A program made the position numbers and the translations under genes. A stretch of DNA of 64,000 nucleotides from Candidatus Accumulibacter sp. ACC003 (lineage in GTDB: Bacteria; Pseudomonadota; Gammaproteobacteria; Burkholderiales; Rhodocyclaceae): contig NZ_CAJQTX010000001.1 in assembly GCF_907163085.1 (NCBI RefSeq), forward strand, positions 186,001-250,000, in the 5' to 3' direction. Below the pieces are notes generated by a model. That model was not told where the DNA came from, did no database searches, and worked only from the letters and a program-made list of their open reading frames with translations. Below, one piece after another: positions 8,533 to 63,918 of the stretch; the first letter of the stretch is position 1; every line of letters starts with the position of its first letter.

Positions 8533-9468
8533 TTGGTCCACGTTTCAGCCGGAGGTATCGTGGTGGTTGCAACGAGCGAAGGGGAGTGGGTGCACTGCGG
8601 TCGCGTATTCAGCGCCGCGGAGATCGCCGAGGTGTGCGGGACGGTGGCGTGGCTGCCGGGATTGGCGCGCAAGGAGTTGGCGGCGACGGTCTGCGAGCAC
8701 CTGGGGTGGACCACTCTGACAGGGACGGCGAAGATCAGCGCCTGCCTGGAGTTTCTGGAGCGTTTGCAGGCGGCCGGGCTGCTGACACTGCCGGCGATAA
8801 GGCCGTCGTCAGCACGCCGTTGCGCGCCGCCCGCGGCACCCGTAGATACGGTCACCGGGGAGCTTCCCGTGCACTGCGCCCTGTCGGCACTCGCACCGGT
8901 CTGCCTGGAAGTCGTTCGCGACGCGGCGTTGGTGGCGCAGTGGGATGCGCTGGTGGCGCGCTGGCACCCACTGGGTTTCCAGGGGGCCTTCGGCTACCGC
9001 CTGCGCTACTTCATCACGGCGGGCGACCGGCGGCTCGGCAGCGTCCTGCTGGCCGGCGCTGCCCGCGCGGTCGCCGTGCGCGACCGCTGGATCGGCTGGA
9101 CGGCCCAGGCCCGCCGCGAGAACCTGGCGCGGGTGGTGAACAACAGCCGCTTCCTGATCTTTCCCCACGTCCGGGTGCCGCATCTGGCCAGTCATGTGCT
9201 CGGACAACTCGCGCGCCGCGCACGCGCGGACTGGCTCGATCACTGGGGCTTCGAGCCCCTGTTGCTGGAGACTTTCGTCGATCCTCGTCACTATACCGGC
9301 ACCTGTTACCGCGCGGCCGGTTGGCAGTTGCTCGGGGCAACCAGCGGGCGCGGGCTGGCCCGCCCCGGCCAGTCGTATCGCAGCACGCCCCGCCAGGTGT
9401 GGCTCAAACCGCTGAGCGCCGATTGTCGCGACCGGCTGTGTGCCGCCCCTGGGAGCTCCCGGCCATGA
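8533..9468 (+). CDS. DUF4338 (DruA-like) accessory protein, element copy 1
   Basis: 311 residues. The N-terminal 100 residues form a helical region, probably a winged-helix type. The DUF4338 core follows with GFQGAFGYRLRYFI, RDRWIGWTAQARRENL, VVNNSRFLIFPHV, LLLETFVDPRHYTGTCY and RAAGWQLLGATSGRG. This is the same domain as DruA of the Druantia anti-phage system, but no dru genes accompany it. Its stop overlaps the start of the transposase (ATGA), implying coupled translation and a role in transposition. The start could be a few codons upstream; 8533 is an alternative start codon well placed after GGTGGAG. Confidence 0.8.
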   Translation: MVHVSAGGIVVVATSEGEWVHCGRVFSAAEIAEVCGTVAWLPGLARKELAATVCEHLGWTTLTGTAKISACLEFLERLQAAGLLTLPAIRPSSARRCAPPAAPVDTVTGELPVHCALSALAPVCLEVVRDAALVAQWDALVARWHPLGFQGAFGYRLRYFITAGDRRLGSVLLAGAARAVAVRDRWIGWTAQARRENLARVVNNSRFLIFPHVRVPHLASHVLGQLARRARADWLDHWGFEPLLLETFVDPRHYTGTCYRAAGWQLLGATSGRGLARPGQSYRSTPRQVWLKPLSADCRDRLCAAPGSSRP

Positions 9469-10985
9469 GCAAACCCTGCCGTCGCCCGACACGCGCTGCC
9501 CTCAAGGAGCTGCGCTCAGAGAAGAAACGGCAGGAAAAGGCACTGAACGCGAAACGGCGCGCGAGTGGACAAGTCCTCCACTCCCCCACTTCTCTGCCCA
9601 ACCGATGCTCAGCCTTCGCGACCGTCGGCGAGGAAAGGGAGGCCCGCGAGGACGCCGTGAGCAAAAAGACGCGTCTCCTGCGCAAAGAGCTACCCGCCTT
9701 GCTCGAGCAACTGGAACAAATTCCCGACCCGAGAGACCCCAGGAAGCGCCGCCACAAGCTGACCGCGCTGCTGCTTTACGGTCTGCTGATGTTCGTCTTT
9801 CAGTTCTCCTCTCGGCGCGAGACCAACCGCGAAATATCCCGTCCCCAGTTCATGGCCAACCTCCACCTGCTGTTCCCGGAGATCGAGACCCTGCCACACG
9901 CCGACACCCTGTTTCGGCTGCTGCGCGACATCGACCTTGACCACCTTGAGCAGGCCCACGTCGATCTGGTGAAGCGGCTGATCCGCGGCAAGAGCTTCCG
10001 CCGCTATCTGATCAACCACTGCTACCCCATCGCCATCGACGGCTCGCAGAAGGTCGCCGGCGACACCCTCTGGGCGGAGGAACTCCTCCAGCGCACCGTC
10101 GGCAAGGAGGAAACCCGCCACACCCAGTACTTCGTCTACGTCCTCGAGGCCAGCCTGGCTTTCCACAACGGCCTGGTCGTCCCACTGCTCAGCGAGTTCC
10201 TCGAACACGCGCTGGGCGATACCGAAGCGCAAAAGCAGGACTGCGAGCTGCGCGGCTTTGTGCGCTTGAGCGACCGGCTCAAGACGCTGTTCCCCCGCCT
10301 GCCGATCCTGCTCCTGCTCGACGGCCTTTACGCCAACGGGCCGGTGATGCAGCGCTGCTTGCGCGCCCACTGGCAGTTCATGATCGTGCTTAAGGACAAG
10401 GATTTGTCCACGGTCTGGCAGGAGTTCCGCGCACTCCACGCCCTGAAGCCACAAGCCGTGCAGCGCGCTTGGGGAAGGCGCCGACAACACTTCAGCTGGG
10501 TCAACGACATCGACTACGCCTTCGCGGCCAACGGGCGTCAGCGTCTCAAGCTGAACCTGGTGGTCTGTGAGGAAAGCTGGGAAAAGATCGATGAACAGGC
10601 CAGGACCGTCACCGAAACATCGCGCCACGCCTGGCTCTCCAGCCAACCGCTCAGACAAGACAATGTCCATGAGCGCTGCAACCTCGGTGCCCGCCACCGT
10701 TGGGGCATCGAAGCGGGCTTCCTCGTCGAAAAACATCAGGGCTACCACTACGAGCATGCCTTTGCCCTCGACTGGAATGCCATGAAAGGCTATCACCTCC
10801 TCATGCGCCTGGCGCATGTGTTCAATACCCTGGCACGTTTCACCCGGCAGTTACGCAACCTGTATCAAGAACTCGGTGTGCGCGGCGCCATCGCCTTCAT
10901 CCGTAATTCCTGTGCTGCGCCCTGGCTTGACCCAGCACGCCTGCGTCTGCTTCTCGCCGAACCGTTCCTGCTGCAACTCGAATAA
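9465..10985 (+). CDS. DDE transposase of the DUF4338-carrying element, copy 1
   Basis: 506 residues from ATG 9465, overlapping the DUF4338 stop. A basic N-terminal tail of about 100 residues precedes an RNase-H-like DDE core. The likely acids are in YPIAIDGSQK, ILLLLDGLYANG and HRWGIEAGFLVEK. The latter has the W/Y-x2-E spacing seen in IS4-superfamily transposases. The family is not one I can name precisely. The frame stays open upstream of 9465 without a protein-like sequence, so the longer reading was not used. Copy 2 (39986-41506) encodes the same protein. Confidence 0.8.
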   Translation: MSKPCRRPTRAALKELRSEKKRQEKALNAKRRASGQVLHSPTSLPNRCSAFATVGEEREAREDAVSKKTRLLRKELPALLEQLEQIPDPRDPRKRRHKLTALLLYGLLMFVFQFSSRRETNREISRPQFMANLHLLFPEIETLPHADTLFRLLRDIDLDHLEQAHVDLVKRLIRGKSFRRYLINHCYPIAIDGSQKVAGDTLWAEELLQRTVGKEETRHTQYFVYVLEASLAFHNGLVVPLLSEFLEHALGDTEAQKQDCELRGFVRLSDRLKTLFPRLPILLLLDGLYANGPVMQRCLRAHWQFMIVLKDKDLSTVWQEFRALHALKPQAVQRAWGRRRQHFSWVNDIDYAFAANGRQRLKLNLVVCEESWEKIDEQARTVTETSRHAWLSSQPLRQDNVHERCNLGARHRWGIEAGFLVEKHQGYHYEHAFALDWNAMKGYHLLMRLAHVFNTLARFTRQLRNLYQELGVRGAIAFIRNSCAAPWLDPARLRLLLAEPFLLQLE

Positions 10986-11340
10986 CCTTGCCCAGGCCTG
11001 CCCAACACATCTTCCCAAGCGCGGCGCACCCCGCGCCGGGAAAGGCTCGCCTGGCGATCGTAACGGAGCTCCCTCGACCTCTCCTGTCCCACTGACTGAA
11101 CACCAAACCCCCGCGCCGCAAGCGCTCCCTTGCCGCTAGCCAACCCCCATCTGGCCGCCTCGGCGGCGAAAGTGGGCGTAACCGGCAAGTGCTGTCGATT
11201 CGGGGAGGTCATGCGTCAGGGCTGGCTTCGATCGCGTCTGATTGGGCCAGCGTTCGTTTGATCTGATGTTGTTTTTCCATCCCGTCAGGATGGCCGACCC
11301 GCCTTGAAAAGTCCAGCACTTATTGTGGGGCAAGGGCAGG

Positions 11341-11692
11341 GCTAGCGTCCGCTGGGTCAGGCTGGCGTCGTTGGCGCGTGGCATTGGCCAGCGCATCGAG
11401 TGGCGTCGCCGCACCGATCGATTCCCCTTGCTCGTCCTCGACGCCGATCACCGTCTCGGTATGCGGATCGACCACCAGAGACACCGTTTTGCCCGACAGT
11501 TCAAAGGGCACCTCGAAGCGTTGTCCCTGATACGACACCGTGCCATCCTTCCTGACCAGTCGCGTGACGCGATGCTGGAACAGGGCATCGAGGCTTGCCG
11601 CCAACGGCCCCAACGGACGAATCCTGGACAGGTCCTGCTGGTAACGCGCCAACGGCGTCATGCCGGCGAGACCGGCGTGCGGGCTGCGGTGT
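11341..11692 (-). pseudogene. Third, partial copy of the four-gene transposon's transposase
   Basis: The minus strand encodes about 115 codons nearly identical to the C-terminal quarter of the DDE transposase at 1414-2742, from about HRSPHAGLAGMTPLARYQ to SDPADASP. Both ends break off abruptly: the 3' side changes to unrelated sequence after GCTAGCCC, the 5' side just before CACCGCAGC. It shows that a third copy of the transposon once lay here and was deleted around it. Confidence 0.85.
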
Positions 11693-14766: not shown

Positions 14767-14768
14767 CG

Positions 14769-15327: not shown

Positions 15328-15606
15328 ATGTCGAAAGAAGCCGTTTTCACGATGAAGCTGGAACCCGAGCTGCGTGCCGAGTTCATGGCGGAAGCTGAAG
15401 CCGCCCACCGCCCGGCGTCGCAGGTGCTGCGCGAGCTCATGCGCGAGTTTGTTCGCCGCCAGCGCGAGGCACGGGACTACGATGAGTTCCTGCGCCACAA
15501 GGTCGAGGCCGGCCGGGCCTCGATGCGTGCCGGGCAGGGGCGATCGAACGATGAGGTTGAAGCCGAGTTTTCCGCACGGCGTGCCAATGTGACGAATCGC
15601 CCGTGA
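15328..15606 (+). CDS. RelB-like antitoxin, now without its toxin
   Basis: 92 residues from ATG 15328 (MSKEAVFTMKLEPELRAEFM), a ribbon-helix-helix N-terminus with a charged helical tail. AGGAGA lies upstream. The stop overlaps the ATG of a toxin gene (GTGA/TGAGGG region, 15603), but that toxin is cut off after about 13 codons by IS66 debris. The antitoxin itself looks intact. Confidence 0.75.
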   Translation: MSKEAVFTMKLEPELRAEFMAEAEAAHRPASQVLRELMREFVRRQREARDYDEFLRHKVEAGRASMRAGQGRSNDEVEAEFSARRANVTNRP

Positions 15607-15641
15607 GGGTCGTCTGGACACCAGAAGCGCAGCAAGACCGT
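15603..15641 (+). pseudogene. Start of a RelE/ParE-type toxin, truncated by IS66 debris
   Basis: Only about 13 codons (RVVWTPEAQQDR) match the standard opening of RelE-type toxins. The downstream sequence is the antisense of an IS66 transposase. The toxin is therefore dead. Confidence 0.55.
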
Positions 15642-15884
15642 CCCAGTCTGGTCCAACAACTTGCGCTTGCGCTTGCGCTTGCGCTTGGTCGTGGCGCCGA
15701 ACAACATCTTGCGAAAGCGCGCCAGCGACGTCTTCGCATTCTGCAAGGCTTGCATCACGAAGCTGAAGGTCGACAGTACCTGCTTGAGTAACTCGTACTG
15801 CGGTGCCGGGAACGTCGGCCCGGCGAGTGCCAGAAGTTCGTCGAGTTGCGCCTGGGTGGCAGTGACGTGCTCGGGCGCTCTCAT
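15642..15884 (-). pseudogene. IS66-type transposase, N-terminal fragment
   Basis: About 80 codons (QYELLKQVLSTFSFVMQAL, then SLARFRKMLFGATTK) match the leucine-zipper-like start of IS66 TnpC, after which the element is lost. A hexamer TTGCGC repeated four times (15661-15684) encodes alternating Lys-Arg at the break. The ATG overlaps the stop of the DUF4338 gene upstream, so here DUF4338 precedes the transposase. That is the reverse of the intact IS66 copies at 60-64 kb. Confidence 0.6.
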
Positions 15885-17036
15885 CCGCTCACCTGCGACA
15901 GTCGCTGGCGAAAGTCCTTGACCAAGGCATAGCCCAGCACTTCCTTGATCGAACGATTGGCGGCGTAGGTCGGTGCGTCCTTGCCACGCCCGGTCGTCGT
16001 TCCCAGGACCTGCCAGTTGGCGGCGCGGTAGCAGGTGCCGCGAAAGCGCTGCGGCTCAATGAAGGTTTCGAGAAAGTAGATCGGGTGCCCGTACATCGAC
16101 TGCCAATCGGCGGACAGCCGGCGCGCCATGTGCCCGAGCAGGTTCGAGGCCAGATGCGGCACGGTGACCCAGGGCAGAATCAGAAAACGCGTGTTGTAGG
16201 CGAGCAGCCGGATGTTCTGCCGCCGTGCCTGCGCCCCCCAGCCAATGAATCGGTCACGGCTGCCCAGATGTCGCGGCGCCGAGCACCACGCCAAGCAGGC
16301 GACTGGTCGGCCCCGGGCATAAACCAGGTACTTCAGATGCTCGCCCACCGGCTGGCTATAGCCCAGATAGTGGTGATGCTGGAGCAGGCTGTTGAACAAG
16401 GGCTCATCAGCGGTGCGTCTAACCTGGCGCACCTCCAGCGGCCCAAGCTCAGCGAAGATCGCTTGCAGGCCTCAACGCTCACGAAAACTGACCCTTTTTC
16501 GCTCACGGAAATTGACCCACCGTTGGCGCGCGCCAACACCCAGGTTTTCGCCTCGGAGCGGGGTCAAGGGCGGGCTGCGGTTTTTGCAGCCCGGCGCAGC
16601 GTACCCTTGACGCCGTGTAGAGGCGAGTACGCTCGGGAATGGCTGTGTGCGCGGCATTTTCGTGCGCACAGCCATGACGACTAGGCGGGTCCGGTTTCGT
16701 GAGCAAAAGTGGGTCAATTCCTGAGAGCGTCAAGGTGCAGGGGGTCTCATCCACGTTCACCCGCGCCGGCTGCCGGCGATCGGCCAGCGGATTGCGCACC
16801 ACCCTGCGCACCGGCGGTAATGCGATCAGCCCCTCGCGATGCAGCATCATCCCGCGGCACACCATGTCGCGCAACGCGCCATTGGCCTGCACCCAATTCC
16901 AGGCCTCACACAATCGTTTCGACAAACCCCTGCGACTCAAGCCGGGATGATCGGCGATCAACTGGCGAATGAACACGAGGTCGTCTTCGGAAATCGCCCG
17001 GTGGCGGTAGGTCAGCGTCGTTTGCATGCCTCGCAA
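15881..17036 (-). pseudogene. DUF4338 (DruA-like) gene disrupted by a MITE-like insert
   Basis: The 5' part (17036 to about 16733) encodes FIRQLIADHPGLSRRGLSKR and MLHREGLIALPPVRR. The 3' part (about 16470 to 15881) resumes with IFAELGPLEVRQV, HHHYLGY, NTRFLILPW, LASNLLGHMARRL and GTCYRAANWQVLGTTTGRG. The roughly 260 bases between them are foreign and shift the frame. Without the insert the gene would be a normal DUF4338 protein of about 300 residues, overlapping the IS66 fragment by ATGA. Confidence 0.7.
16474..16732. mobile_element. MITE-like insert with doubled terminal repeats and internal hairpins
   Basis: The left end has two direct copies of a site like GCTCACGAAAACTGACCC (16477 and 16501). 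The right end has the same pair inverted (GCTCTCAGGAATTGACCC and GCTCACGAAACCGGACCC in complement). Between them are a 16-bp perfect palindrome GTTGGCGCGCGCCAAC (16522-16537), a stem GGGCTGC/GCAGCCC (16572-16592) nested within GTCAAGGG/CCCTTGAC (16563-16611), and a hairpin at 16639-16675. No gene is present. The doubled end sites suggest mobilisation by a transposase that binds repeated sites, as IS21 or Tn7-like enzymes do. Confidence 0.55.
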
Positions 17037-24790: not shown

Positions 24791-26798
24791 AGACCCTGAC
24801 GGCAGGAAACGCAGTGGCGGGCCGTTCGGCCCCCCCCCCAGGGCCTCCGCACTCGGATAGCATAGTGTTTATTGTCATACTCGATCAGCGGAAAATCGTT
24901 AAAATTCACGAGCTTATGACAACCACTTGTAAACCCTACTGAAATCAGGTCTACTCTCGTCTTTTGGACAACCGAAATGACTGTGACGACGGGAGTGAGC
25001 CTGATGTGCTGCTTGAGGGAAGTGGACGAGCCGCGCAGACCCAGCAATGGAACGCTGCATGACTTTCAGGAGATTTTGGTGATTGCCATGGCAGGGGTAC
25101 TCTCGGATTGTGACACCATCGAAGACATCGCCTATTGGGGGCGCCGGAAGGAAAAATGGCTGCGTGAATTCCTGGTGCTCAAGAACGGGGTTCCCTCCAC
25201 GGAGACGTTTCTGCGGGTGTTCCGAGCGCTTGACCCGAAGCAATTTGAGGTCGCGTTTCGCCGCTGGGTGGCCGGGGTGGTCGGCGCCTTGCGAGGCAGC
25301 GTCGCGTTCGATGGCAAGACGGTGCGAGGTTCCGGCAGTGGTGGCGAAACCGCGATTCACATGGTCAGCGCCTTCGCTACGGAATTGGGTATTGTCCTCG
25401 GTCAGGAAAAGGTCGCCAGCAAGAGTAATGAGATCACCGCCATCCCGGAACTGCTCAAGGCACTGTATATCAATGGGTTGCTGGTCACCATCGACGCCAT
25501 GGGCGTAAGTATTCGGTGAACCCGTAGCCCCCGCTTTTTTGGTCGGCGTGGTTCAGTCAGCGATTGGCGGGTAGACCGGAAATCTGGACTGGACACAGCA
25601 GCGGAAATCCGGCACCATGCGGCGCATGGACACGGGTGCGGACATCATTGGCGGAGGATCGGCGGCAAGTCACCGCCAAGTGGCGCCGTTCGCCGAGGTG
25701 TTGGTGACGCTAACCAAGGAGCAGGAAATCAAGCTCCGTTGGGAGGCCAGCTTCTGGCGGAGCCAACATCGACAAGCGCTGGTTCGGTTGGCGCAATCGG
25801 AGGCCGCTCATCGGGTGGAAATGGCGCAAGCGGCGGCGCGCGAGGCGGCCTTGCGCAGCGAACTGGAGCAGGCCAAGGGCAAGATCCGCGATCTGCAAAA
25901 ACGCCTGTTTGGTCGCAAGTCAGAACGCTCTTCGGGAGCCGAGAAGAACCCGGCGGCGGACCAAAAATCGTCGCGAGCTCGAGGTCAGCAACCGGGAGCA
26001 GCGGGTCACGGGCGGAACCCGGAAAGTCACTTGCCGACGCAGATCGAGGTCATCGACATCGACTGCCCGCATTGCCCGGACTGTGGTCTGGGCTACGTCG
26101 ACTTTCCCGGCACGGAAGACAGTGAAGTCCTCGAGATCGAGGTCAAGGCCTACCGCCGGAAGATCTGCCGGCGGCGCTACCGGCGGACCTGTCAGTGTTC
26201 GGGCGCGCGGGGTATTCTGACCGCGCCACCGCCGGCACGATTGATCCCGCGTGGAAAGTACGGCGTGTCGATCTGGGTGCACCTGCTGCTGTCGAAGTTC
26301 TTGTACGGCCAGCCGACGCATCGGCTTCTGCGAGACTTGTCCGACCACGGACTGACGCTCTCGGCAGGAACGGTGGCCGGCGGACTGCGTGCCTTGGCAC
26401 CGCTGTTCGAGCCGCTTGAAGAAGCACTGCTTGGCCAACTACGCAGCGAGAAACAGTGGCACGCAGACGAGACCCGCTGGCGGGTCTTTGCCGAGACCGA
26501 AGGGAAGGTCGGACATCGCTGGTATTTCTGGGTGTTCCACGGCCCATCGGTCATCCACTTCGTGCTCGACCCGAGCCGCTCGGCGGCGGTGCCGATCCGG
26601 GAGCTCTCCGGTAGCGCCGGAGGAGTCATCATCTGTGATTGCGTATTCCACACCAAACTGGACACCGATTCCAGACGAAACTGGACAGTGATTCCACGGC
26701 AAACTGGACACCGATTCCAGAGCAATCTGGACAGTCATTTGTAATATCGTAGCGCGCGGGATAACCGTGGCACCCTCGGCAGATTTGCCGAGGCCCAC

Positions 26799-28337
26799 AT
26801 GGCGAATAGCAGGCTATCCATGCGCAAGATTCTTGACGTTTTACGGCTGTCCCTTGAGGGCGGCCGCAGCCACCGCGAGATCGCCCGGGCGACCCACGCC
26901 TCACCGACGACCGTCGGCGATCTCCTCCGTCGTGCGAAGCTCTACGGCGTCACCTGGCCACTGCCGGCGGGAATGAGCGAGCCGGAGCTGGAGGCGCAGC
27001 TGTACCCGCCGGCGGCACCGTCGAACCAGACCCGCCCCGAACCCGATTGGCCGGTCGTGCACCGCGAACTGCGGCGCAAGGGCGTCACCCTCGACCTCCT
27101 CTGGCAGGAATACAAGACCGAACACCCGGCCGGCTACCGCTACAGCGGCTTCTGCGCCCTCTATCGGCAGTGGGTCGGGCGGCTCTCGCTGAGCCTGCGC
27201 CAGACGCACCCCCCGGGCGAGAAACTGTTCGTCGACTACGCCGGCCAGACGGTGCCGATCACCGACCCGATGAGCGGTGAAATCCGGCTGGCGGCGATCT
27301 TCGTCGCCGTCCTCGGCGCCTCCAACTACACCTACGGCGAAGCCACCTGGAGCCAGAGCCTGCCGGACTGGATCGGCAGCCATGTGCGCACCTTCGAACA
27401 CCTCGGCGGCGTCACCGCCCTGATGGTGCCCGACAACCTCAAGAGCGGCGTCACCAGCGCCTGCTACTACGAGCCCGAACTCAACCCGACGTACCGCGAC
27501 CTGGCCACCCATTACGGCACCGCGGTTCTCCCCGCCCGGCCGCGTCGCCCGAAAGACAAGGCCAAGGCCGAAGCTGGGGTGCTTCTGGTCGAGCGCTGGG
27601 TCCTGGCGCGTCTGCGCCACCAGCGTTTCTTCAGCCTGGCTGAGCTCAACCGCAGCATCGCCGAACTGATGACCCGGCTCAATAACCGTCCGTTCAAGAA
27701 GTTGCCCGGCTGCCGCCAATCGGCCTTCATCGAACTCGATCGGCCGGCTTTACTGCCCTTGCCGGTGACGCGTTACGAGTTCGCCGAATGGAAAGTCGTC
27801 AGGGTCGGCATTGATTACCACGTCGAGCTCGTCGGCCACTACTACTCGGTGCCCTACCGCTTCGCCCGCGAGCAAGTCGATAGCCGGCTGACGGCGAGTA
27901 CCGTCGAACTGTTCCATCGCGGCACGCGCATTGCCAGTCATGTCCGCAACGACGCCCGCGGCCGGCACACCACCGTCGATGCGCACATGGCGCCGGCCCA
28001 CCGGGCGGTACAGGGCTGGAATGCCCCGCGCCTACTCGACTGGGCCGGGCGTATCGGGCCGCATGCCCAGGGCGTCGTGCAGAGCCTTCTGCATCAACGC
28101 CGCCATCCGCAACAGGCCTATCGGGCGTGCCTGGGCATCCTGCGCCTGGGCCAGGCCTACGGGGACGAGCGCCTGGAAGCTGCCTGCGAGCGGGCCATCG
28201 CTATCGGGGCGACGTCCTACAGCAGCCTGAAATCGATCTTGAAGAACGGCCTGGACAAGCAGCGGGTGAGCGCACCCGCCCAGACCCATTTACCTCCGGA
28301 GCACGCCAATGTGCGTGGCCCCGGTTACTACCACTGA
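26799..28337 (+). CDS. istA: IS21 family transposase IstA
   Basis: 512 residues. An N-terminal helix-turn-helix (SHREIARATHASPTTVGDLL) precedes an rve integrase core with acids in KLFVDYAGQTV (about 145), LMVPDNLKSGV (about 210) and KDKAKAEAGV (about 250). A beta-rich C-terminal domain (GHYYSVPYRFA) follows. It cleaves and joins the ends together with IstB, which starts 12 bases downstream after GAAGGAGC. Confidence 0.95.
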   Translation: MANSRLSMRKILDVLRLSLEGGRSHREIARATHASPTTVGDLLRRAKLYGVTWPLPAGMSEPELEAQLYPPAAPSNQTRPEPDWPVVHRELRRKGVTLDLLWQEYKTEHPAGYRYSGFCALYRQWVGRLSLSLRQTHPPGEKLFVDYAGQTVPITDPMSGEIRLAAIFVAVLGASNYTYGEATWSQSLPDWIGSHVRTFEHLGGVTALMVPDNLKSGVTSACYYEPELNPTYRDLATHYGTAVLPARPRRPKDKAKAEAGVLLVERWVLARLRHQRFFSLAELNRSIAELMTRLNNRPFKKLPGCRQSAFIELDRPALLPLPVTRYEFAEWKVVRVGIDYHVELVGHYYSVPYRFAREQVDSRLTASTVELFHRGTRIASHVRNDARGRHTTVDAHMAPAHRAVQGWNAPRLLDWAGRIGPHAQGVVQSLLHQRRHPQQAYRACLGILRLGQAYGDERLEAACERAIAIGATSYSSLKSILKNGLDKQRVSAPAQTHLPPEHANVRGPGYYH

Positions 28338-28349
28338 AGGAGCTTTGCC

Positions 28350-29084
28350 ATGCTGAATCATCCGACCGTCGAGAGACTCCACCAACTGCGCCTGCCGGGC
28401 ATGGCCCGGGCCTTGGCCAGCCAGGCGCAAAGCCCCGAGATCGACCAGTTGTCGTTCGAGGAGCGCCTCGGGCTGCTGGTCGACTGCGAGGCGGCCGAAC
28501 GCGAGTCGCGACAGAATGCGGCGCGTCTGAAACGCGCCGGGTTGAAACAGGCGGCGACGCCAGAGGATGTCAATTTCCGGCATCCGCGCCGACTCGACCG
28601 GGGGCTGTTCGCCCGCTTGATGACCGGGCGCTGGGTGAGCGATCACCAGAACGTGCTGATCTGCGGGCCGACGGGGATCGGCAAGACCTATCTGGCGTGC
28701 GCCCTGGCCAACCAGGCGTGCCGGCAGGGGCATTCGGTCCTCTATGTGCGTTTGACGCGTCTCTTGCCGGCGCTGGCGATCGGCCGCGGCGATGGCAGTT
28801 ATCTGAAGTCGCTGGCGCAGTTGGCCAAGACCGAGGTCCTGGTGATCGACGAATGGGGGCTGGCACCGCTCTCCGACGAGAGCCGCCGCGATCTCCTGGA
28901 GATCTTCGATGACCGCCACGGGACGCGCTCGACGATCATCACCAGCCAGCTGCAGGTCGAGCATTGGCATGCGTCGATTGGCGATCCGACGCTGGCCGAT
29001 GCGATCCTCGACCGGCTGGTCCATCAGGCACATACGCTGGACCTCGATGGCGAATCGTTGCGCAAGCCCGAGACGCCGGTATGA
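28350..29084 (+). CDS. istB: IS21 helper ATPase IstB
   Basis: 244 residues, DnaC-like AAA+. Walker A is CGPTGIGKTYLACAL (about residue 105) and Walker B VLVIDEWGLAPL (about residue 165), with the arginine-finger region STIITSQL after it. IstB oligomerises on DNA and drives target capture for IstA. Confidence 0.95.
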   Translation: MLNHPTVERLHQLRLPGMARALASQAQSPEIDQLSFEERLGLLVDCEAAERESRQNAARLKRAGLKQAATPEDVNFRHPRRLDRGLFARLMTGRWVSDHQNVLICGPTGIGKTYLACALANQACRQGHSVLYVRLTRLLPALAIGRGDGSYLKSLAQLAKTEVLVIDEWGLAPLSDESRRDLLEIFDDRHGTRSTIITSQLQVEHWHASIGDPTLADAILDRLVHQAHTLDLDGESLRKPETPV

Positions 29085-29267
29085 ACGCCTCAGCAAGCCC
29101 AACAAGTTACCCACCGCCGCCCGCCAGCCCGCCTGCTATAGAAGGAGCGCAGCCTGGCGGGCGGCCGTGGATAACTCTGCGCGGTGCCACTCGTTGCGCC
29201 CAAAGCGCCCCACGGCCTGTGCCCTCGATTGCTGCGCTGCTGGCATGGCAACCCCTCCATCAAACCG

Positions 29268-29583
29268 TTACTGCGTAACGCTCAACAGGACCATCAACAT
29301 GGCAAAAACTAATGCTCAACGGCAATCGGACTATCGCGTTCGTCACTTGAAAGATGTGGACGGCCAGGCCGAGCGGCTGAATCTGCTGGTCAATCTTCAC
29401 GCCAAGCGTGCCTTGGAGCGCCTGGCGGCGTGTTACGCAGTAACGCAACGTGAGGTCCTTGAAAGCCTGCTTCGGGAGGCTGACCACGCCGCTTTGAAGC
29501 GCGCGGCGCGGGTTCCGAATGGAGAGACGGACTACTACGAAAAGCGCCTTCTATTGGCCAAAGAAGCCGTTACGCAGTAACGC
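29268..29583. repeat. Three GTTACGCAGTAAC near-palindromes around the IS21 passenger gene
   Basis: Copies lie at about 29268 (inverted form GTTACTGCGTAAC), 29435 and 29571. The arms GTTAC/GTAAC are palindromic about a 3-base centre. The first is 18 bases before the start codon and the last contains the stop codon. Operator-like. Confidence 0.5.
29299..29580 (+). CDS. Passenger gene of IS21: small basic DNA-binding-like protein
   Basis: 93 residues from ATG 29299 (MAKTNAQRQSDYRVRHLKD), a basic helical N-terminus. This is followed by LNLLVNLHAKRALERLAACYAVTQREVLESLL, which resembles ribbon-helix-helix or CopB-type plasmid repressors. It lies between istB and the right end, where IS21 elements normally have nothing. 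A 13-bp near-palindrome (GTTACGCAGTAAC) occurs upstream, inside, and over its stop codon, suggesting autoregulation. I cannot name the family. Confidence 0.6.
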   Translation: MAKTNAQRQSDYRVRHLKDVDGQAERLNLLVNLHAKRALERLAACYAVTQREVLESLLREADHAALKRAARVPNGETDYYEKRLLLAKEAVTQ

Positions 29584-30419
29584 CAAGCGGTTGCCTTTGC
29601 ATGCCAAAAACTTGACCACAAGACGAGGCTCAGAGTAAAACCTTTTAACCCCGCGTCGCTACGCTCCGACTGTCCAGATTCACGTGGAATGGGTGTCCAG
29701 TTTGCCGTGGAATCGGTGTCCAGTTTGCGTGGAATACACAGTGATCGCTATTCGGCCTACAAGAAGCTCGCGCGAGTCCTTGACCACTTCATTCTGGCTT
29801 TCTGCTGGGCACATCAGCGGCGTGATTTCCTGGAACTGGCCAACGCCCATCCGGAGCTCGCGGACTGGGCACTGGCCTGGGTCGAGCAGATCGCTCAGCT
29901 CTACCACTTGAATGGACGGCGCCTGGAAGTCCGTAGCGACCCAGTACAGTGGGCCGAACGCGACCGCGCCTTGCGGCAGGCGATCACGCAAATGGCCAGT
30001 CAACGGGAAAGCGAACTGGCGAACCCGGCGCTCAAAATGCCGGCGAGCAAGGTGCTGCGAAGCATGCGCAAACATTGGTCCGGCCTGACCGTCTTTGTCG
30101 ACCGCCCCGAGGTGGCGATGGACAATAATGCCGCCGAGCGCGCACAGCGCACGCCGGTGGTCGCACGCAAGAACTTCTATGGGTCGGGCAGTCTCTGGTC
30201 CGGCGCACTCGCCGCGACGATGTTCAGCTTGCTGCTGACGCTGCGCTTGTGGGGAATCAACCCGCGCACCTGGCTGACGGCGTATCTGGAGGCCTGCGCC
30301 GCCAACGGCAACCTGCCGCCGACGGACTTGAGTGCCTTTCTGCCCTGGGCGATGGCGACCGATCGACTGGCTCAGATGCGTGGCATCCCGGTCGATCAGA
30401 GCCGTCCCATCGATAGCTC

Positions 30420-31277
30420 GTGAAGCCTTATTGCGGGCGTCACTTTACCGACGACGAACTGCAGGCCCTCTGCCGCCTGATCGAAGCCCATCCTGGCAGC
30501 AGCCGCGCGCAACTGTCGCGCCAGGTGTGTGAGCTCTTCGACTGGCGTAAGCCCAATGGCGAGCTGAAGGATATGACCTGCCGGGTGGCCATGCTGCGTA
30601 TGCAGGCCGACGGCCTGCTCACCCTGCCGGCGGCACGACGGGCCGCTCCTCGCCAACCCGAGTATCTGCCTACTCACGCCACCGATCCACAACCGTTGCT
30701 CACTCAGCCGGTGCATGAACTGCCGCCGCTGCGTCTGCATCAGGTCGTCGGTTCGGCGAACTCGCGTCTGTGGAACGAGTACATCGCCCGCTACCACTAT
30801 CTCGGCCACACGCCCATGGCGGGCAGTCAGAGCCGCTACTTCGTCTTCGCCGGCGAGACCCTGGTCGCCTTGCTCAGCTTCGGCGCCAGCGCCTGGAAAC
30901 TCGCCGCGCGCGAGCAATTCATCGGTTGGCACGATGAGCAGCGACAAAGGAACCTGCAACTGGTGGTGAACAATGCCCGCTTTCTGATCCTGCCCTGGAT
31001 CCAGTGCAAGGGCCTGGCCTCCAAGATCCTCTCGCTTATGCAGCGGCAACTGCCCAAGGACTGGCTGGCGCGCTACGGCTACCGCCCCGTACTGCTCGAA
31101 ACCTTCGTCGAGACGCCCCGCCATCGCGGCACCTGCTACCAGGCCGCCAACTGGATCAAGGTCGGTCAAACCGCCGGGCGAGGCAAGAAATGCCCCACCA
31201 GCAAGTCCATCCTCCCGATCAAGGACATCTGGCTCTACCCCCTTCACAGAGCCTTCCGATCAGTCCTCTGCCGCTAA
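30420..31277 (+). CDS. DUF4338 (DruA-like) protein of IS66 copy A
   Basis: 285 residues from GTG 30420, overlapping the IS66 transposase stop. The N-terminal 95 residues have LCRLIEAHPGSSRAQLSRQV, a winged-helix-like region. The core carries LWNEYIARYHYLGH, REQFIGWHDEQRQRNLQ, VVNNARFLILPW, LLETFVETPRHRGTCY and AANWIKVGQTAGRG. It is complete although the transposase upstream is split. Two near-identical genes lie at 60326-61183 and 63061-63918. Confidence 0.88.
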   Translation: MKPYCGRHFTDDELQALCRLIEAHPGSSRAQLSRQVCELFDWRKPNGELKDMTCRVAMLRMQADGLLTLPAARRAAPRQPEYLPTHATDPQPLLTQPVHELPPLRLHQVVGSANSRLWNEYIARYHYLGHTPMAGSQSRYFVFAGETLVALLSFGASAWKLAAREQFIGWHDEQRQRNLQLVVNNARFLILPWIQCKGLASKILSLMQRQLPKDWLARYGYRPVLLETFVETPRHRGTCYQAANWIKVGQTAGRGKKCPTSKSILPIKDIWLYPLHRAFRSVLCR

Positions 31278-39689: not shown

Positions 39690-39985
39690 CGGGGCGCGTA
39701 TTGTAGCCGCTGCGCCCGGGTTTCGCCAATTTGGCGGCTGGTCTGCCAGCCCTGACGCATGACCTCCCCGAATCGACAGCACTTGCCGGTTACGCCCACT
39801 TTCGCCGCCGAGGCGGCCAGATGGGGGTTGGCTAGCGGCAAGGGAGCGCTTGCGGCGCGGGGGTTTGGTGTTCAGTCAGTGGGACAGGAGAGGTCGAGGG
39901 AGCTCCGTTACGATCGCCAGGCGAGCCTTTCCCGGCGCGGGGTGCGCCGCGCTTGGGAAGATGTGTTGGGCAGGCCTGGGCAAGG

Positions 39986-41506: not shown

Positions 41507-42438
41507 GGCCGGGAGCTCCCAGGGGCGGCACACAGCCGGTCGCGACAATCGGCGCTCAGCGGTTTGAGCCACACCTGGCGGGGCGTGCTGCGATACGACT
41601 GGCCGGGGCGGGCCAGCCCGCGCCCGCTGGTTGCCCCGAGCAACTGCCAACCGGCCGCGCGGTAACAGGTGCCGGTATAGTGACGAGGATCGACGAAAGT
41701 CTCCAGCAACAGGGGCTCGAAGCCCCAGTGATCGAGCCAGTCCGCGCGTGCGCGGCGCGCGAGTTGTCCGAGCACATGACTGGCCAGATGCGGCACCCGG
41801 ACGTGGGGAAAGATCAGGAAGCGGCTGTTGTTCACCACCCGCGCCAGGTTCTCGCGGCGGGCCTGGGCCGTCCAGCCGATCCAGCGGTCGCGCACGGCGA
41901 CCGCGCGGGCAGCGCCGGCCAGCAGGACGCTGCCGAGCCGCCGGTCGCCCGCCGTGATGAAGTAGCGCAGGCGGTAGCCGAAGGCCCCCTGGAAACCCAG
42001 TGGGTGCCAGCGCGCCACCAGCGCATCCCACTGCGCCACCAACGCCGCGTCGCGAACGACTTCCAGGCAGACCGGTGCGAGTGCCGACAGGGCGCAGTGC
42101 ACGGGAAGCTCCCCGGTGACCGTATCTACGGGTGCCGCGGGCGGCGCGCAACGGCGTGCTGACGACGGCCTTATCGCCGGCAGTGTCAGCAGCCCGGCCG
42201 CCTGCAAACGCTCCAGAAACTCCAGGCAGGCGCTGATCTTCGCCGTCCCTGTCAGAGTGGTCCACCCCAGGTGCTCGCAGACCGTCGCCGCCAACTCCTT
42301 GCGCGCCAATCCCGGCAGCCACGCCACCGTCCCGCACACCTCGGCGATCTCCGCGGCGCTGAATACGCGACCGCAGTGCACCCACTCCCCTTCGCTCGTT
42401 GCAACCACCACGATACCTCCGGCTGAAACGTGGACCAA
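41503..42438 (-). CDS. DUF4338 (DruA-like) accessory protein, element copy 2
   Basis: 311 residues, the same protein as 8533-9468, with RWIGWTAQARRENL, VVNNSRFLIFPHV and GTCYRAAGWQLLGATSGRG. Translationally coupled to the transposase. Confidence 0.8.
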   Translation of the reverse strand: MVHVSAGGIVVVATSEGEWVHCGRVFSAAEIAEVCGTVAWLPGLARKELAATVCEHLGWTTLTGTAKISACLEFLERLQAAGLLTLPAIRPSSARRCAPPAAPVDTVTGELPVHCALSALAPVCLEVVRDAALVAQWDALVARWHPLGFQGAFGYRLRYFITAGDRRLGSVLLAGAARAVAVRDRWIGWTAQARRENLARVVNNSRFLIFPHVRVPHLASHVLGQLARRARADWLDHWGFEPLLLETFVDPRHYTGTCYRAAGWQLLGATSGRGLARPGQSYRSTPRQVWLKPLSADCRDRLCAAPGSSRP

Positions 42439-42851
42439 TGACCCTCCACCTATCCTGCCAGAAGTCCCCCCGGCTGTCTAGCTCCCTTGTGCGAAACCTT
42501 TTTTGCCTGCCCACCGCAACGCCTTGCCAGTACTGGGCTGGCGCAGTCATGCTTCAGCGCTGCTGGTCTGCAGGGCCATCGCGTGCATGCCAAGGTCGTG
42601 ACCCCTCTGAAATAACCGTTTACGCTCAACAGTCTGCGCGGGTCCGTCGACGTGCCTTTTGGCGACGACCAGATGCGAGCCAGAGCTGACCTCTTCCGTG
42701 CCGAGCTGCTGGGCGTTCTACAAGATTCATGCGATTGCCCTGGGTGGACAAGTCTCCCGCGCGTGTCGCTTCGATCAACAGCGTAGAATGGCGCGCTTGG
42801 CGCCATGCCCGGCGGCCACTCTATCCACCGACAGGACTTCGAACTGCACCC

Positions 42852-56366: not shown

Positions 56367-56367
56367 C

Positions 56368-58206: not shown

Positions 58207-58215
58207 TTTCGTTCC

Positions 58216-60138: not shown

Positions 60139-60325
60139 GACGAGGGCTTCCTTTCTTCGGGTCGAGTCCGGGGCCACGGCTACGTAGCCCAAAAGAGAAT
60201 TAATACTAGCGCGGCACTGCAAGCGTGAAAAGGGCTATTTTTCAGGATATTGCCGTCGCCAGCTAGGGCGACGGCGGTAAGTATTCGGCCAACCCGTAGT
60301 GAGCCAGCGCCGTTGGCGAGGCCGG

Positions 60326-61183
60326 TTAGCGGCAGAGGATTGATCGGAAGGCTCTGTGAAGGGGATAGAGCCAGATATCCTTGATCGGGAGGATGGGCTT
60401 GCTGGTGGGGCACTTCTTGCCTCGGCCGGCGGTTTGGCCGACCTTGATCCAGTTGGCGGCCTGGTAGCAGGTGCCGCGATGGCGGGGGGTCTCGACGAAG
60501 GTTTCGAGCAGCACGGGGCGGTAACCGTAGCGCGCCAGCCAGTCCTTGGGCAGTTGCCGCTGCATGAGCGAGAGGATCTTGGAGGCCAGGCCCTTGCACT
60601 GGATCCAGGGCAGGATCAGAAAGCGGGCATTGTTCACCACCAGTTGCAGGTTCCTTTGTCGCTGCTCATCGTGCCAACCGATGAATTGCTCGCGCGCGGC
60701 GAGTTTCCAGGCGCTGGCGGCGAAGCTGAGCAAGGCGACGAGTGTCTCGCCGGCGAAGACGAAGTAGCGGCTCTGACTGCCGGCCATGGGCGTGTGGCCG
60801 AGATAGTGGTAACGAGCGATGTACTCGTTCCACAGACGCGAGTTCGCCGAACCGACGACCTGTCGCACCGAGAGAGGCGGCAGTTCATGCACCGGCTGAG
60901 TGAGCAAGGGTTGTGGATCGGTGGCGTGCGTGGGCCGATACTCGGGTTGGCGAGGAGCGGTCCGTCGTGCAGCCGGCAGGGTGAGCAGGCCGTCGGCTTG
61001 CATGCGCAGCATGGCCACCCGGCAGGTCATATCCTTCAGCTCACCATTGGGCTTGCGCCAGTCGAAGAGCTCGCACACCTGACGCGAGAGTTGTGCGCGG
61101 CTGGCGCCGGGAGGGGCCTCGATCAGGCCGCGGATCGTCTGCAGTTCGTCGGCGGTAAAGTGGCGCCCGCAATAAGGCTTCAC
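60326..61183 (-). CDS. DUF4338 (DruA-like) protein of IS66 copy B
   Basis: 285 residues starting at GTG 61183, overlapping the transposase stop. Core motifs LWNEYIARYHYLGH, REQFIGWHDEQRQRN, VVNNARFLILPW and GTCYQAANWIKVGQTAGRG. About 95% identical to the copies at 30420 and 63061 by eye; the differences cluster in the N-terminal wing (TIRGLIEAPPGASRA). Confidence 0.88.
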   Translation of the reverse strand: MKPYCGRHFTADELQTIRGLIEAPPGASRAQLSRQVCELFDWRKPNGELKDMTCRVAMLRMQADGLLTLPAARRTAPRQPEYRPTHATDPQPLLTQPVHELPPLSVRQVVGSANSRLWNEYIARYHYLGHTPMAGSQSRYFVFAGETLVALLSFAASAWKLAAREQFIGWHDEQRQRNLQLVVNNARFLILPWIQCKGLASKILSLMQRQLPKDWLARYGYRPVLLETFVETPRHRGTCYQAANWIKVGQTAGRGKKCPTSKPILPIKDIWLYPLHRAFRSILCR

Positions 61184-62970
61184 GAGCTATCGATGGAAGG
61201 TGTCTGATTGACCGGGATGGCACGCATCTGGGCCAGACGATCGGTCGCCATCGCCCAGGGCAGAAAGGCGCTCAAGTCCGCTGGTGGCTGGTTGCCGTTG
61301 GCGGCGCAGGCTTCCAGATAAGCCGTCAGCCAGATGCGCGGGTTGATTTTCCACAAGCGCAGCGTCAGCAGCAGGCTGAACATCGTCGCGGCGAGAGCGC
61401 CGGACCAGTGACTACCCGACCCATAGAAGTTCTTGCGTGCGACCACCGGCGTACGCTGGGCGCGTTCGGCGGCATTATTGTCCATCGCCACCTCGGGGCG
61501 GTCGACAAACACGGTCAAGCCGGACCAATGCTTGTGCATGCTTCGCAGCACCTTGCTCGCCGGCATTTTGAGCGCCGGGTTTGCCAGTTCGCGTTCGCGC
61601 TGACTGGCCATCTGCACGATCGCCTGCCGCAAGAGGCGGTCGCGTTCGGCCCACTGTGCCGGGTCGTTACGGACTTCCAGGCGCCGTCCATTCAAGTGGT
61701 AGAGCTGAGCGATCTGCTCGACCCAGGCCAGTGCCCAGTCCGCGAGCTCCGGATGGGCGTTGGCCAGTTCCAGGAAATCACGCCGCTGATGTGCCCAGCA
61801 GAAAGCCAGAATGAAGTGGTCAAGGACTCGCGCGAGTTTCTTGTAGCCCGCGTAGCGATCACAGATGATGACGCCTCCGGCGCTACCGGAGAGCTCCCGG
61901 ATCGGCACCGCCGCCGAGCGGCTCGGGTCGAGCACGAAGTGGATGACCGATGGGCCGTGGAACACCCAGAAATACCAGCGATGTCCGACCTTCCCTTCGG
62001 TCTCGGCAAAAACCCGCCAGCGAGTCTCGTCCGCGTGCCACTGTTTCTCGCGACGCAGTCGGCCAAGCAGTGCTTCTTCAAGCGGCTCGAACAGCGGCGC
62101 CAAGGCACGAAGTCCGCCGGCCACCGTTCCTGCCGAAAGCCTCAGTTGGTGGTCGGACCAGTCTCGTAGAAGCCGATGCGTCGGCTGACCGTACAAGAAC
62201 TTCGACAGCAGCAAGTGCACCCAAATCGACACGCCGTACTTTCCACGCGGGATCAATCGTGCCGGCGGTGGCGCGGTCAGAATGCCGCGGGCGCCCGGGC
62301 ACTGACAGGTCCGCCGGTAGCGCCGCCGGCAGATCTTCCGGCGGTAGGCTTTGACCTCGATCTCGAGAACTTCACTGTCTTCTGTGCCGGGAAAGTCGAC
62401 GTAGCTCAGACCACAGTCCGGGCAATGCGGGCAGTCGATGTCGATGACCTCGATCTGCGTCGGCAAGTGGCTTTCCGGATTCCGCCCGTGACCCGTTGCT
62501 CCCGGTTGATGACCTCGACCCCGCGACGACTTCTGGTCTGCTGCCGGGTTCTTCTCGGCTCCCGAAGAGCGTTCTGACTTGCGACCAAACAGGCGTTTTT
62601 GCAGATCGCGGATCCGGCCCTGGGCCTGCTCGAGCTCGCTACGCAAGGCCGCCTCACGCGCCGCCGCTTGCTCCGCCGCACGCGCCATTTCCACCCGATG
62701 AGCGGCCTCCGATTCCGCCAAACGGACCAGCGCTTGCCGATGTTGGCTGCGCCAGAAGTTGGCCTCCCAACGGAGCTTGATTTCCTGCTCCTTGGTCAAC
62801 GTCACCAACACCTCGGCGAACGGCGCCACTTGGCGGTGACTTGCCGCCGATCCTCCGCAGATAATGTCCGTAGCCGTGCCCATGCGCCGCATGGTGCCGG
62901 ATTTCCGCTGCTGTGTCCAGTTCAGATCTCCGGGCTGCCCGCCAATCGCTGACGGAAGCTCGCCCACCAA
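61180..62970 (-). CDS. IS66 family transposase (TnpC), intact
   Basis: 596 residues from ATG 62970; an inner ATG at 62892 (MRRMGTATD) matches the start used by copy A. Coiled-coil N-terminus (RQALVRLAESEAAHRVEMAR), LQKRLFGRKSERSS, zinc-finger CPHCPDCGLSYVDF, then the DDE_Tnp_IS66 core (WHADETRWRVF, IICDRYAGYKKLA, VAMDNNAAERAQR). No tnpA or tnpB is present, as in the ISBst12-type subgroup. Confidence 0.92.
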   Translation of the reverse strand: MVGELPSAIGGQPGDLNWTQQRKSGTMRRMGTATDIICGGSAASHRQVAPFAEVLVTLTKEQEIKLRWEANFWRSQHRQALVRLAESEAAHRVEMARAAEQAAAREAALRSELEQAQGRIRDLQKRLFGRKSERSSGAEKNPAADQKSSRGRGHQPGATGHGRNPESHLPTQIEVIDIDCPHCPDCGLSYVDFPGTEDSEVLEIEVKAYRRKICRRRYRRTCQCPGARGILTAPPPARLIPRGKYGVSIWVHLLLSKFLYGQPTHRLLRDWSDHQLRLSAGTVAGGLRALAPLFEPLEEALLGRLRREKQWHADETRWRVFAETEGKVGHRWYFWVFHGPSVIHFVLDPSRSAAVPIRELSGSAGGVIICDRYAGYKKLARVLDHFILAFCWAHQRRDFLELANAHPELADWALAWVEQIAQLYHLNGRRLEVRNDPAQWAERDRLLRQAIVQMASQRERELANPALKMPASKVLRSMHKHWSGLTVFVDRPEVAMDNNAAERAQRTPVVARKNFYGSGSHWSGALAATMFSLLLTLRLWKINPRIWLTAYLEACAANGNQPPADLSAFLPWAMATDRLAQMRAIPVNQTPSIDSS

Positions 62971-63060
62971 AAAAACCGGGGCTACGGGTTCACCGAATAC
63001 TTACCGACGGCGTAAGTATTCGGCCAACCCGTAGCGCGCCAGCGCCATTGCCGAGGCGGG

Positions 63061-63918
63061 TTAGCGGCAGAGGACTGATCGGAAGGATCGGTGAAGGGGA
63101 TAGAGCCAGATATCCTTGATCGGGAGGATCGACTTGCGGGTGGGGCACTTCTTGCCTCGGCCGGCGGTTTGGCCGACCTTGATCCAGTTGGCGGCCTGGT
63201 AGCAGGTGCCGCGATGGCGGGGCGTCTCGACGAAGGTTTCGAGTAGTACGGGGCGGTAGCCGTAGCGCGCCAGCCAGTCCTTGGGCAATTGCCGCTGCAT
63301 AAGCGAGAGGATCTTGGAGGCCAGGCCCTTGCACTGGATCCAGGGCAGGATCAGAAAGCGGGCATTGTTCACCACCAGTTGCAGGTTCCTTTGTCGCTGC
63401 TCATCGTGCCAACCGATGAATTGCTCGCGCGCGGCGAGTTTCCAGGCGCTGGCGCCGAAGCTGAGCAAGGCGACCAGGGTCTCGCCGGCGAAGACGAAGT
63501 AGCGGCTCTGACTGCCCGCCATGGGCGTGTGGCCGAGATAGTGGTAGCGGGCGATGTACTCGTTCCACAGACGCGAGTTCGCCGAACCGACGACCTGATG
63601 CAGACGCAGCGGCGGCAGTTCATGCACCGGCTGGGTGAGCAACGGTTGTGGATCGGTGGCGTGAGTAGGCAGATACTCGGGTTGGCGAGGAGCGGCCCGT
63701 CGTGCCGCCGGCAGGGTGAGCAGGCCGTCGGCCTGCATACGCAGCATGGCCACCCGGCAGGTCATATCCTTCAGCTCGCCATTGGGCTTACGCCAGTCGA
63801 AGAGCTCACACACCTGGCGCGACAGTTGCGCGCGGCTGCTGCCAGGATGGGCTTCGATCAGGCGGCAGAGGGCCTGCAGTTCGTCGTCGGTAAAGTGACG
63901 CCCGCAATAAGGCTTCAC
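63061..63918 (-). CDS. DUF4338 (DruA-like) protein of IS66 copy C
   Basis: 285 residues, nearly the same as the gene at 30420-31277 (LCRLIEAHPGSSRAQLSRQV, LRLHQVVGSANSRLWNEY). It is closer to copy A than to the adjacent copy B, so the tandem pair did not arise by a simple duplication of B. Confidence 0.88.
   Translation of the reverse strand: MKPYCGRHFTDDELQALCRLIEAHPGSSRAQLSRQVCELFDWRKPNGELKDMTCRVAMLRMQADGLLTLPAARRAAPRQPEYLPTHATDPQPLLTQPVHELPPLRLHQVVGSANSRLWNEYIARYHYLGHTPMAGSQSRYFVFAGETLVALLSFGASAWKLAAREQFIGWHDEQRQRNLQLVVNNARFLILPWIQCKGLASKILSLMQRQLPKDWLARYGYRPVLLETFVETPRHRGTCYQAANWIKVGQTAGRGKKCPTRKSILPIKDIWLYPLHRSFRSVLCR

Follow-up and report, generated by a model that had tools for sequence, protein, structure and literature searches.

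A DruA gene carried inside insertion sequences as a candidate Mom-type nucleobase-modifying enzyme

DruA genes of the window

This article is concerned with DruA (DUF4338, Pfam PF14236), a gene family that recurs beside transposases in a 64,000-nucleotide stretch of Candidatus Accumulibacter sp. ACC003 (contig NZ_CAJQTX010000001.1, positions 186,001 to 250,000; hereafter the window, meaning the whole stretch that was analysed), and with the possibility that the short form of DruA is an enzyme with which insertion sequences modify DNA. The original prediction, made from these letters alone, placed seven DUF4338/DruA instances in the window, and searches with PF14236 or with DruA protein queries recovered a match at each of the places it named, the five window proteins that were scanned scoring 89.7-140.7 bits against PF14236 (curated cut-off 27 bits). 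It was equally right that every copy is coupled to a transposase, either by fusion or by an overlap of 4 nucleotides (nt), and that three kinds of transposase are involved (IS4/Tn5-like, ISAs1-like and IS66); the transposase that it had left as an unclassified DDE type at the 8533 and 41503 copies is here called ISAs1-like, from its Pfam domain DDE_Tnp_1_assoc. The features are as follows.

3852..11346, minus strand: IS4/Tn5-like stretch, DruA fused to the transposase N-terminus (blastn against locus L052, and Pfam)
3888..5696, minus strand: remaining open frame of the IS4 fusion (DruA 8-143, Tnp_DNA_bind 183-239, DDE_Tnp_1 360-556)
8409..11224, plus strand: ISAs1-like element, 2816 bp, inverted ends CAGCGCTGAAGCATGAC/CAGCCCTGACGCATGAC, 9-bp target duplication GCTTCGATC
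8533..9468, plus strand: DruA gene, 311 amino acids (aa), N-terminal domain and GNAT domain
9465..10985, plus strand: transposase, 506 aa, PF13808 DDE_Tnp_1_assoc, its start overlapping the DruA stop by 4 nt
39747..42562, minus strand: second ISAs1-like copy, 99.96% identical to 8409-11224, with its own 9-bp target duplication
41503..42438, minus strand: DruA gene of the second ISAs1-like copy
15881..17009, minus strand: decayed DruA (GNAT part 15881-16432; frame-broken N-terminal part 16803-17009)
15477..15884, minus strand: N-terminal IS66 TnpC fragment, 4-nt overlap with the decayed DruA (local hidden Markov model, HMM)
25505..31326, plus strand: IS66 element, TnpC then DruA, both ends in the window, interrupted at about 26640-29740
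30420..31277, plus strand: DruA gene of the interrupted IS66 element, 285 aa, 4-nt overlap with TnpC; used for structure prediction
60277..63004, minus strand: complete IS66 element, 2728 bp, inverted ends GTAAGTATTCGG.., 8-bp target duplication CGACGGCG
60326..61183, minus strand: DruA gene of the complete IS66 element, lying between its ends and sharing 4 nt with TnpC
61180..62970, minus strand: IS66 TnpC of the complete element (PF03050, 199.5 bits)
63061..63918, minus strand: DruA gene of a third IS66 element, which has an end at 63012 and runs past the window
5704..8077, minus strand: Transposase_29 (PF21804) element inserted into the IS4 fusion, no DruA match within it

The complete IS66 element is the simplest of these, having room for TnpC (297 bits against NF033517) and DruA only, without TnpA or TnpB, two genes that are lacking in one IS66 subgroup; a second full copy elsewhere in the genome (locus L067) likewise has an 8-bp duplication, and TnpB adjoins DruA in locus L178. 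For the third element the 3' part of TnpC was read in locus L019, anchored on the common 4-nt overlap, and the complete element directly abuts it, its 8-bp duplication extending one base into the end of this neighbour at 63012. The decayed fragment at 15477-17009, where the open reading frame (ORF) 15477-15884 matches the TnpC N-terminus (E 5e-7 by a local HMM, in a search of this region only), has the gene order opposite to that of the other IS66 elements of the window. The interruption of the element at 25505-31326 is an insertion of about 3.1 kb with ORFs at 26799-28337 and 28350-29084.

The ISAs1-like elements are equally well bounded, in that direct reading of the fetched sequence showed 9-bp target duplications at 13 full copies, a 14th being cut at a locus end; in the second window copy the transposase start follows by position at 41506 (4-nt overlap). 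PF13808 was found in both types of ISAs1 element discussed here, no match to the ISAs1 model NF033564 being listed for 9468-10985. The IS4 fusion has fared less well and survives in three pieces (11346-11227, 8408-8078 and 5703-3852) broken by the ISAs1-like and Transposase_29 insertions, and these match an intact relative, which bears out the span of 11280-3888 first proposed for it. Its frame is intact at 741 aa in locus L052 and, by frame length, in L053 (the two loci have common flanks), a related IS4-type fusion of 764 aa is present in L051, and the IS4/Tn5 model NF033590 gives 293 bits for the window fusion and 407 bits for L051 (cut-off 160); inverted ends of this fusion were looked for and not found.

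Copies across the genome and transposase neighbours in five phyla

The source genome (5.39 Mb in 13 contigs) contains 83 DruA matches, every one of them scoring higher than the Pfam cut-off and free of internal stops over the matched stretch; no match was found in 14 control genomes, and chance is excluded. Tallied by open-frame length, with DNA comparison confirming the class only for copies in fetched loci, 32 of the 83 are IS66-type (30 of 286 aa, one of 327 and one of 256), 25 belong to the class of DruA fusions with an ISAs1 transposase (23 of 372 aa, one of 382 and one of 246), 19 are of the ISAs1-like type with the 2816-bp element and seven are of other types, including the IS4 fusions. 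The ISAs1 fusion is a 1908-bp element with 10-bp target duplications at most of the 23 long copies listed; its frame splits after a run of seven A, and the first half of this split frame scores 51.2 bits against NF033564 (cut-off 70). In locus L041 the fusion is read as two overlapping frames past the seven-A run (3439-4512 and 2726-3475), which suggests programmed frameshifting, and a first frame of this length recurs in 23 matches of the genome. Three element types, IS66 and both ISAs1 types, thus have defined inverted ends and target duplications (of 8, 9 or mostly 10 bp), and in all three the short DruA sits inside the ends and is most likely intrinsic to the element. IS66-type DruA is also under purifying selection, as is TnpC: the ratio of nonsynonymous to synonymous divergence is 0.028/0.179 and 0.031/0.179 (0.16 and 0.17) for DruA in two IS66 copy pairs and 0.032/0.160 (0.20) for TnpC in one pair over 1248 nt. 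A second DruA-rich genome came to light through locus L074, an Arenicellales metagenome-assembled genome (G228, OY282380.1) with 52 matches in several fused and unfused classes.

Beyond this genome, PF14236 was searched in draws from five phyla and was found in 17 of 398 genomes of the host phylum (own genome included), 15/149 of Acidobacteriota, 19/199 of Planctomycetota, 37/299 of Bacillota and 14/201 of Chloroflexota (centre genomes included). The loci that were then compared are matches of at least 60 bits, with the own genome and the four centre genomes, which had been chosen for having matches, left out and with the repeated copies of genomes G464 and G498 represented by three loci and one; they number 113, several coming from one genome and some lying at contig ends where the neighbour is invisible (e.g. 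L161, L200, L233). Long DruA, with at least 200 bits and mostly an end-to-end match to the profile, accounts for 23 loci and short DruA for 90. The transposase references, in 14 groups, were labelled by Pfam or NCBIfam or by clustering with labelled ones (L197 and L099 are without a Pfam label), and several of the positive loci are matched by a reference taken from the same locus. With these references a transposase lies within 3 kb, and in every case within 1.5 kb, of 65 of the 90 short DruA loci, 19 of them fusions, and of none of the 23 long ones (p = 5e-11); removing four doubtful loci (L197, unlabelled; L158, weak; L165, on the opposite strand; L205, a possible insertion) leaves 61/90 (p = 6e-10). 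Ordinary acetyltransferase genes, taken as a control, had none of these transposases within 1.5 kb at 63 loci (58 distinct places; p = 2e-21 against the 58), 17 of the 63 (13 distinct places) being from the source genome itself.

Besides the 19 fusions, 15 of the 65 have a 4-nt overlap start available and 18 start within 60 nt (52 together), the remaining 13 being looser, broken or on the other strand. The groups comprise IS66 (21), ISAs1 and ISAs1-like (18), IS4/Tn5 (12), DDE_5, which we take to be IS701 (2), three unassigned DDE groups (2 each) and single cases of IS1634, UPF0236 (presumably ISLre2), another IS4 group, an IS1380-like one (weak), Transposase_29 and L197. By draw the counts are 8/13 in the host phylum, then 14/16, 17/20 and 25/37, and 1/4 in Chloroflexota. 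A Pfam scan independent of the references found the IS66 transposase in 13, DDE_Tnp_1_assoc in 8 and DDE_Tnp_1 in 7 of 60 downstream neighbours of short DruA, and none of those among 35 neighbours of long DruA, which included NurA (6), HerA-type DUF87 (3), TniQ (1) and a reverse transcriptase (1). Among 80 named relatives, a sample biased by consisting of the best matches to IS66-type DruA, 60 have a transposase of a window type. A tree of 161 domains of short DruA, quickly made and with many weak forks, shows 18 switches of transposase family and four of IS66 gene order; the starred branches force fewer switches, at least six for IS66, three for ISAs1 and three for IS4/Tn5 (loci without a transposase being pooled with the rest), and these repeated switches mean that the domain has been joined to transposases more than once.

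Could the association be a by-product of neighbourhoods rich in insertion sequences? Both the window and the genome are full of them, and at L205 a shortened DruA is followed by a Transposase_29 gene, possibly an insertion like the one in the window, but DruA lies within the inverted ends of three multi-copy element types and the control loci, including those of the same genome, stand at zero. For the multi-copy elements this explanation is refuted, and in general I give it next to no weight. It is also very improbable that DruA is a mere passenger, i.e., an anti-phage, toxin-like or defence cargo of transposons. The DruA of the Druantia defence system belongs to the same Pfam family, the PADLOC model DruA1 finds weak matches (only 18-20 bits) in four of seven proteins and three short loci have a partner gene in common with long DruA; against this, DruA is fused to the transposase in 19 of the 65 loci, the minimal element holds just TnpC and DruA, and the long, Druantia-type form is beside these transposases in 0/23. 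A remnant of Druantia was rejected as well, no partner being seen and the DruA being of the wrong type. DruE is a large helicase, bigger than 854 aa, which is the length of the longest complete ORF listed for the window, so that the original statement that no DruB-E partner is present is consistent with what was found, the neighbours not having been scanned with PADLOC.

Other neighbourhoods deserve a mention in their own right. A DruA branch with a support of 100 (L114, L119, L139, L142) lies near a 700-aa protein with a radical-SAM match under the Pfam cut-off, and in L142 DruA also adjoins a ResIII-type helicase and an ASCH-domain protein; the set resembles a cassette for nucleic-acid modification that lacks a transposase. 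Six loci (L162, L163, L164, L244, L245, L249) encode proteins of 680-1281 aa (one cut at a locus end) in which the DruA match is split and which have an N-terminal part in common; the downstream neighbours in L244 and L245 have nSTAND3 and FRG domains, and these large proteins are possibly a defence class. The downstream genes of 11 long-DruA loci (L151, L153, L167, L211, L251-L254, L256, L257, L270) cluster with those of the short loci L235, L260 and L261; they are mostly of about 400 aa and some match NurA.

Fold, conserved residues and a candidate activity

The 285-residue protein encoded at 30420..31277 was modelled alone with AlphaFold (an alignment of 74 rows, four from the window and 70 of the 80 named loci), and the model, with a mean predicted local distance difference test (pLDDT) score of 90.5, consists of a helical N-terminal domain of three helices followed by a GNAT core; the 311-aa DruA predicted without an alignment reached a pLDDT of 45.9 and was not used. 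IS66-type DruA thus has, as far as the model goes, the GNAT fold, in agreement with the published naming of DUF4338 as a GNAT domain (PMC10853773). A Foldseek search of the PDB returned GNATs with query-normalised TM-scores of 0.29-0.42 among the 50 rows listed, which points to the fold rather than to close kin; the best E-values were those of FeeM, and Mom of phage Mu (8bv8), seventh by E-value, had the highest query-normalised TM-score (0.42) and identity (17%) among those 50. In a viral library the first functionally named match, at rank 3, was Mom of a Salmonella phage. A PDB sequence search with the DruA profile gave a single meaningless match.

The central result is the comparison of profiles. 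Against a profile of Mu Mom and 13 phage homologues, hhalign gave the short DruA profile a probability of 96.6% (score 74.8 over 166 columns); another 26 DruA domains, taken mostly from fusions, reached 95.7% (score 66.6) and 20 subsamples at least 95.8%. The comparisons with RimI (13.1) and Acetyltransf_3 (17.0) yielded no match, 40 column-shuffled Mom profiles scored at most 20.9, the reversed profile scored 17.6 and RimI against Acetyltransf_3, the positive control, scored 55.0. Long DruA does not match the Mom profile (score 18.8), and the short and long DruA profiles align with each other (probability 97.1%). The Pfam Mom family (PF25680) matches the window DruA at 30420 with an E-value of 0.002, as no other acetyltransferase family does, and gives 14.8 bits for L041 and 11.7 bits for L154.

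The residues bear this out in part. Nine positions are invariant in the 14 Mom proteins (H58, Y59, G72, G81, E108, G156, Y159, N163 and G168), and DruA has the same residue at six of them (H58, Y59, G156, Y159, N163 and G168). In the alignment Mom H58 corresponds to DruA H126 (159/159 rows), R111 to R187 (159/160), S124 to S201 (159/160), D149 to D/E231 (D or E in 147/158), G156 to G237 (154/158), Y159 to Y240 (156/157), N163 to N244 (148/157) and G168 to G249 (156/156), so that these eight positions are kept in 93-100% of up to 161 short-DruA rows. The title of the PDB entry for Mom reads 'inactive mutant S124A', and in the alignment the substituted residue indeed falls on S124 as numbered here. 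In 24 rows of long DruA, where the alignment is less certain, the place of H126 is taken by W in all and that of S201 by G in 96%, Y240 is kept in 18% and G249 in all; G249, T251 and G253 are common to short and long forms. Judging from these alignments, short transposon DruA keeps much of the Mom signature and long DruA lacks most of it.

The GNAT fold, the Mom profile match and the conserved residues together suggest a Mom-like nucleobase-modifying enzyme, and a number of observations weigh against this. Mom-invariant G72, G81 and E108 differ in DruA, the partner of Y59 is kept in only 133/159 rows (15 have P), and S124 itself is S in nine and T in five of the 14 Mom proteins. All eight core positions are kept in 116/157 rows, the other 41 departing mostly at the Y59 partner, and in 7/24 of the ISAs1 class. 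The PF25680 score of 18.2 bits for 30420 is under the cut-off of 27.1, no PF25680 match is listed for the 8533 copy (nor for L167 and L244), and by target-normalised TM-score RimI (0.69) is ahead of Mom (0.57). The N-terminal domain of DruA matched no DNA-binding fold, 25 of the 90 short loci are without a transposase, and L235, L260 and L261 have their partner gene in common with long DruA.

Some of these points are what one would expect if DruA were a non-catalytic transposition accessory acting in end binding, target choice or regulation, with a GNAT-like fold that only binds DNA or the transposase. Such a role would suit the fusion and tight coupling, the three-helix N-terminal domain of the IS66 type, the 41 departing rows and the three of nine Mom-invariant positions at which DruA differs. 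Yet H126, R187, S201, Y240 and G249 are near-invariant over 161 rows and many transposase groups, S201 aligns with the Ser whose mutation inactivates Mom, and the ISAs1 fusion does without the N-terminal domain, and I therefore regard this explanation as unlikely, though a serious contender. The original prediction of a general transposition accessory was right about the association, as the survey bears out; its proposed roles are too general, the residues, fold and profile favouring a Mom-like enzyme. It seems more improbable still that this GNAT transfers an acyl group to RNA or to a protein (a host factor or the transposase) instead of DNA: the fold is common to protein and polyamine acetyltransferases and RimI has the best target-normalised TM-score among the rows looked at, but the profile resembles Mom and not RimI or Acetyltransf_3 (two families and one mixed set compared). 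A protein-acetylating GNAT as nearest relative was rejected, neither of those profiles giving a match.

The Mom-type reading is thus the one to which I lean, with moderate confidence: short DruA is probably an intrinsic gene of insertion sequences that encodes a GNAT enzyme of Mom type modifying a nucleobase. Catalysis, DNA as the substrate, the chemical group and a benefit to transposition I infer by analogy with Mom, which moves an acyl group from acyl-CoA to adenine N6, a modification from which protection of phage DNA has been inferred (PMC7824862). Most likely, short DruA would add a small acyl-derived group to a DNA base. The protein would be produced in step with the transposase, either as an N-terminal fusion to it or by translation from a start that overlaps, and the IS66, ISAs1-like and IS4 types in the source genome have a helical, possibly DNA-binding, N-terminal domain; the transposase or this domain could deliver the enzyme to element DNA, so that the element, its ends or its new copies would be marked. 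The mark might shield excised or newly copied DNA and other transposition intermediates from host nucleases and restriction, or it might let the transposase tell donor, new copy and target apart as marked or unmarked, and these benefits are not exclusive.

Taken further, a guild of insertion sequences with at least ten DDE transposase groups in several phyla could own a Mom-like DNA-hypermodifying enzyme, often as part of the transposase polypeptide, which would couple transposition to modification, and the DruA of Druantia could be a descendant without the active site; this broader picture is quite possible, if somewhat short of probable. A recruitment of the defence use from the transposon form, as originally proposed, fits the alignments, the Mom signature being kept in the transposon form and mostly missing in the Druantia type. 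The transposition of IS10 and IS50 is tied to host Dam methylation, and the present findings suggest that elements with DruA may bring a DNA-marking enzyme of their own. If transposon DruA is a Mom-like DNA-modifying enzyme, three matters can be put to the test together, namely the function of DruA, the reason why one accessory has been taken up repeatedly by different transposons, and a possible link between transposition and a DNA modification that the element makes itself. If the enzyme is active, base modification joined to a DDE transposase would constitute a transposon module of a new kind. There would also be a caution for defence surveys, namely that lone DruA genes are not necessarily Druantia, since short DruA is mostly (65/90 sampled loci) beside or fused to a transposase.

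Comparison with known systems

Phage Mu replicates by transposition, and its Mom protein (PF25680; PDB 8bv8, 'methylcarbamoylase mom') is, like the DruA genes of the window, encoded by a transposable element. The two have in common the GNAT fold, a significant profile-profile match and the residues H58, R111, S124, D149, G156, Y159, A161, N163 and G168 (Mom numbering); they differ in that DruA stays under the Pfam cut-off, has G72, G81 and E108 changed and Y59 only partly kept, and carries an extra N-terminal domain or a transposase fusion, the modification activity being predicted for DruA. The long forms, which on their Pfam name and neighbours are probably the DruA of Druantia, belong to the same Pfam family as short DruA and their profiles align, but the long proteins match the PF14236 profile end to end, are without most Mom-type residues and a Mom profile match, and adjoin NurA and HerA-type DUF87 genes instead of these transposases.

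The insertion sequences themselves, which by their Pfam or NCBIfam labels belong to IS66, ISAs1, IS4/Tn5 and IS1634, have the same transposase domains as their relatives and here gain an extra DruA domain or gene; the complete IS66 element has TnpC, inverted ends and an 8-bp duplication as in IS66, and differs in being without TnpA and TnpB and in carrying DruA. As for the domain, DUF4338 has been named a GNAT domain and found fused to DndF (PMC10853773), in a passage that ties it to neither Mom nor transposons, and proteins of Synechococcus phages have been described as structurally resembling DruA of Druantia type I (PMC12774648), in a passage that likewise makes no connection to transposons or Mom. 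Among the open-licence papers, as far as their accessible text goes, none was found that links DUF4338 to Mom or to insertion sequences. Insertion sequences, Mom enzymes and DUF4338 as a GNAT are each known parts, and what appears to be new, within the same portion of the open-licence literature, is their union.

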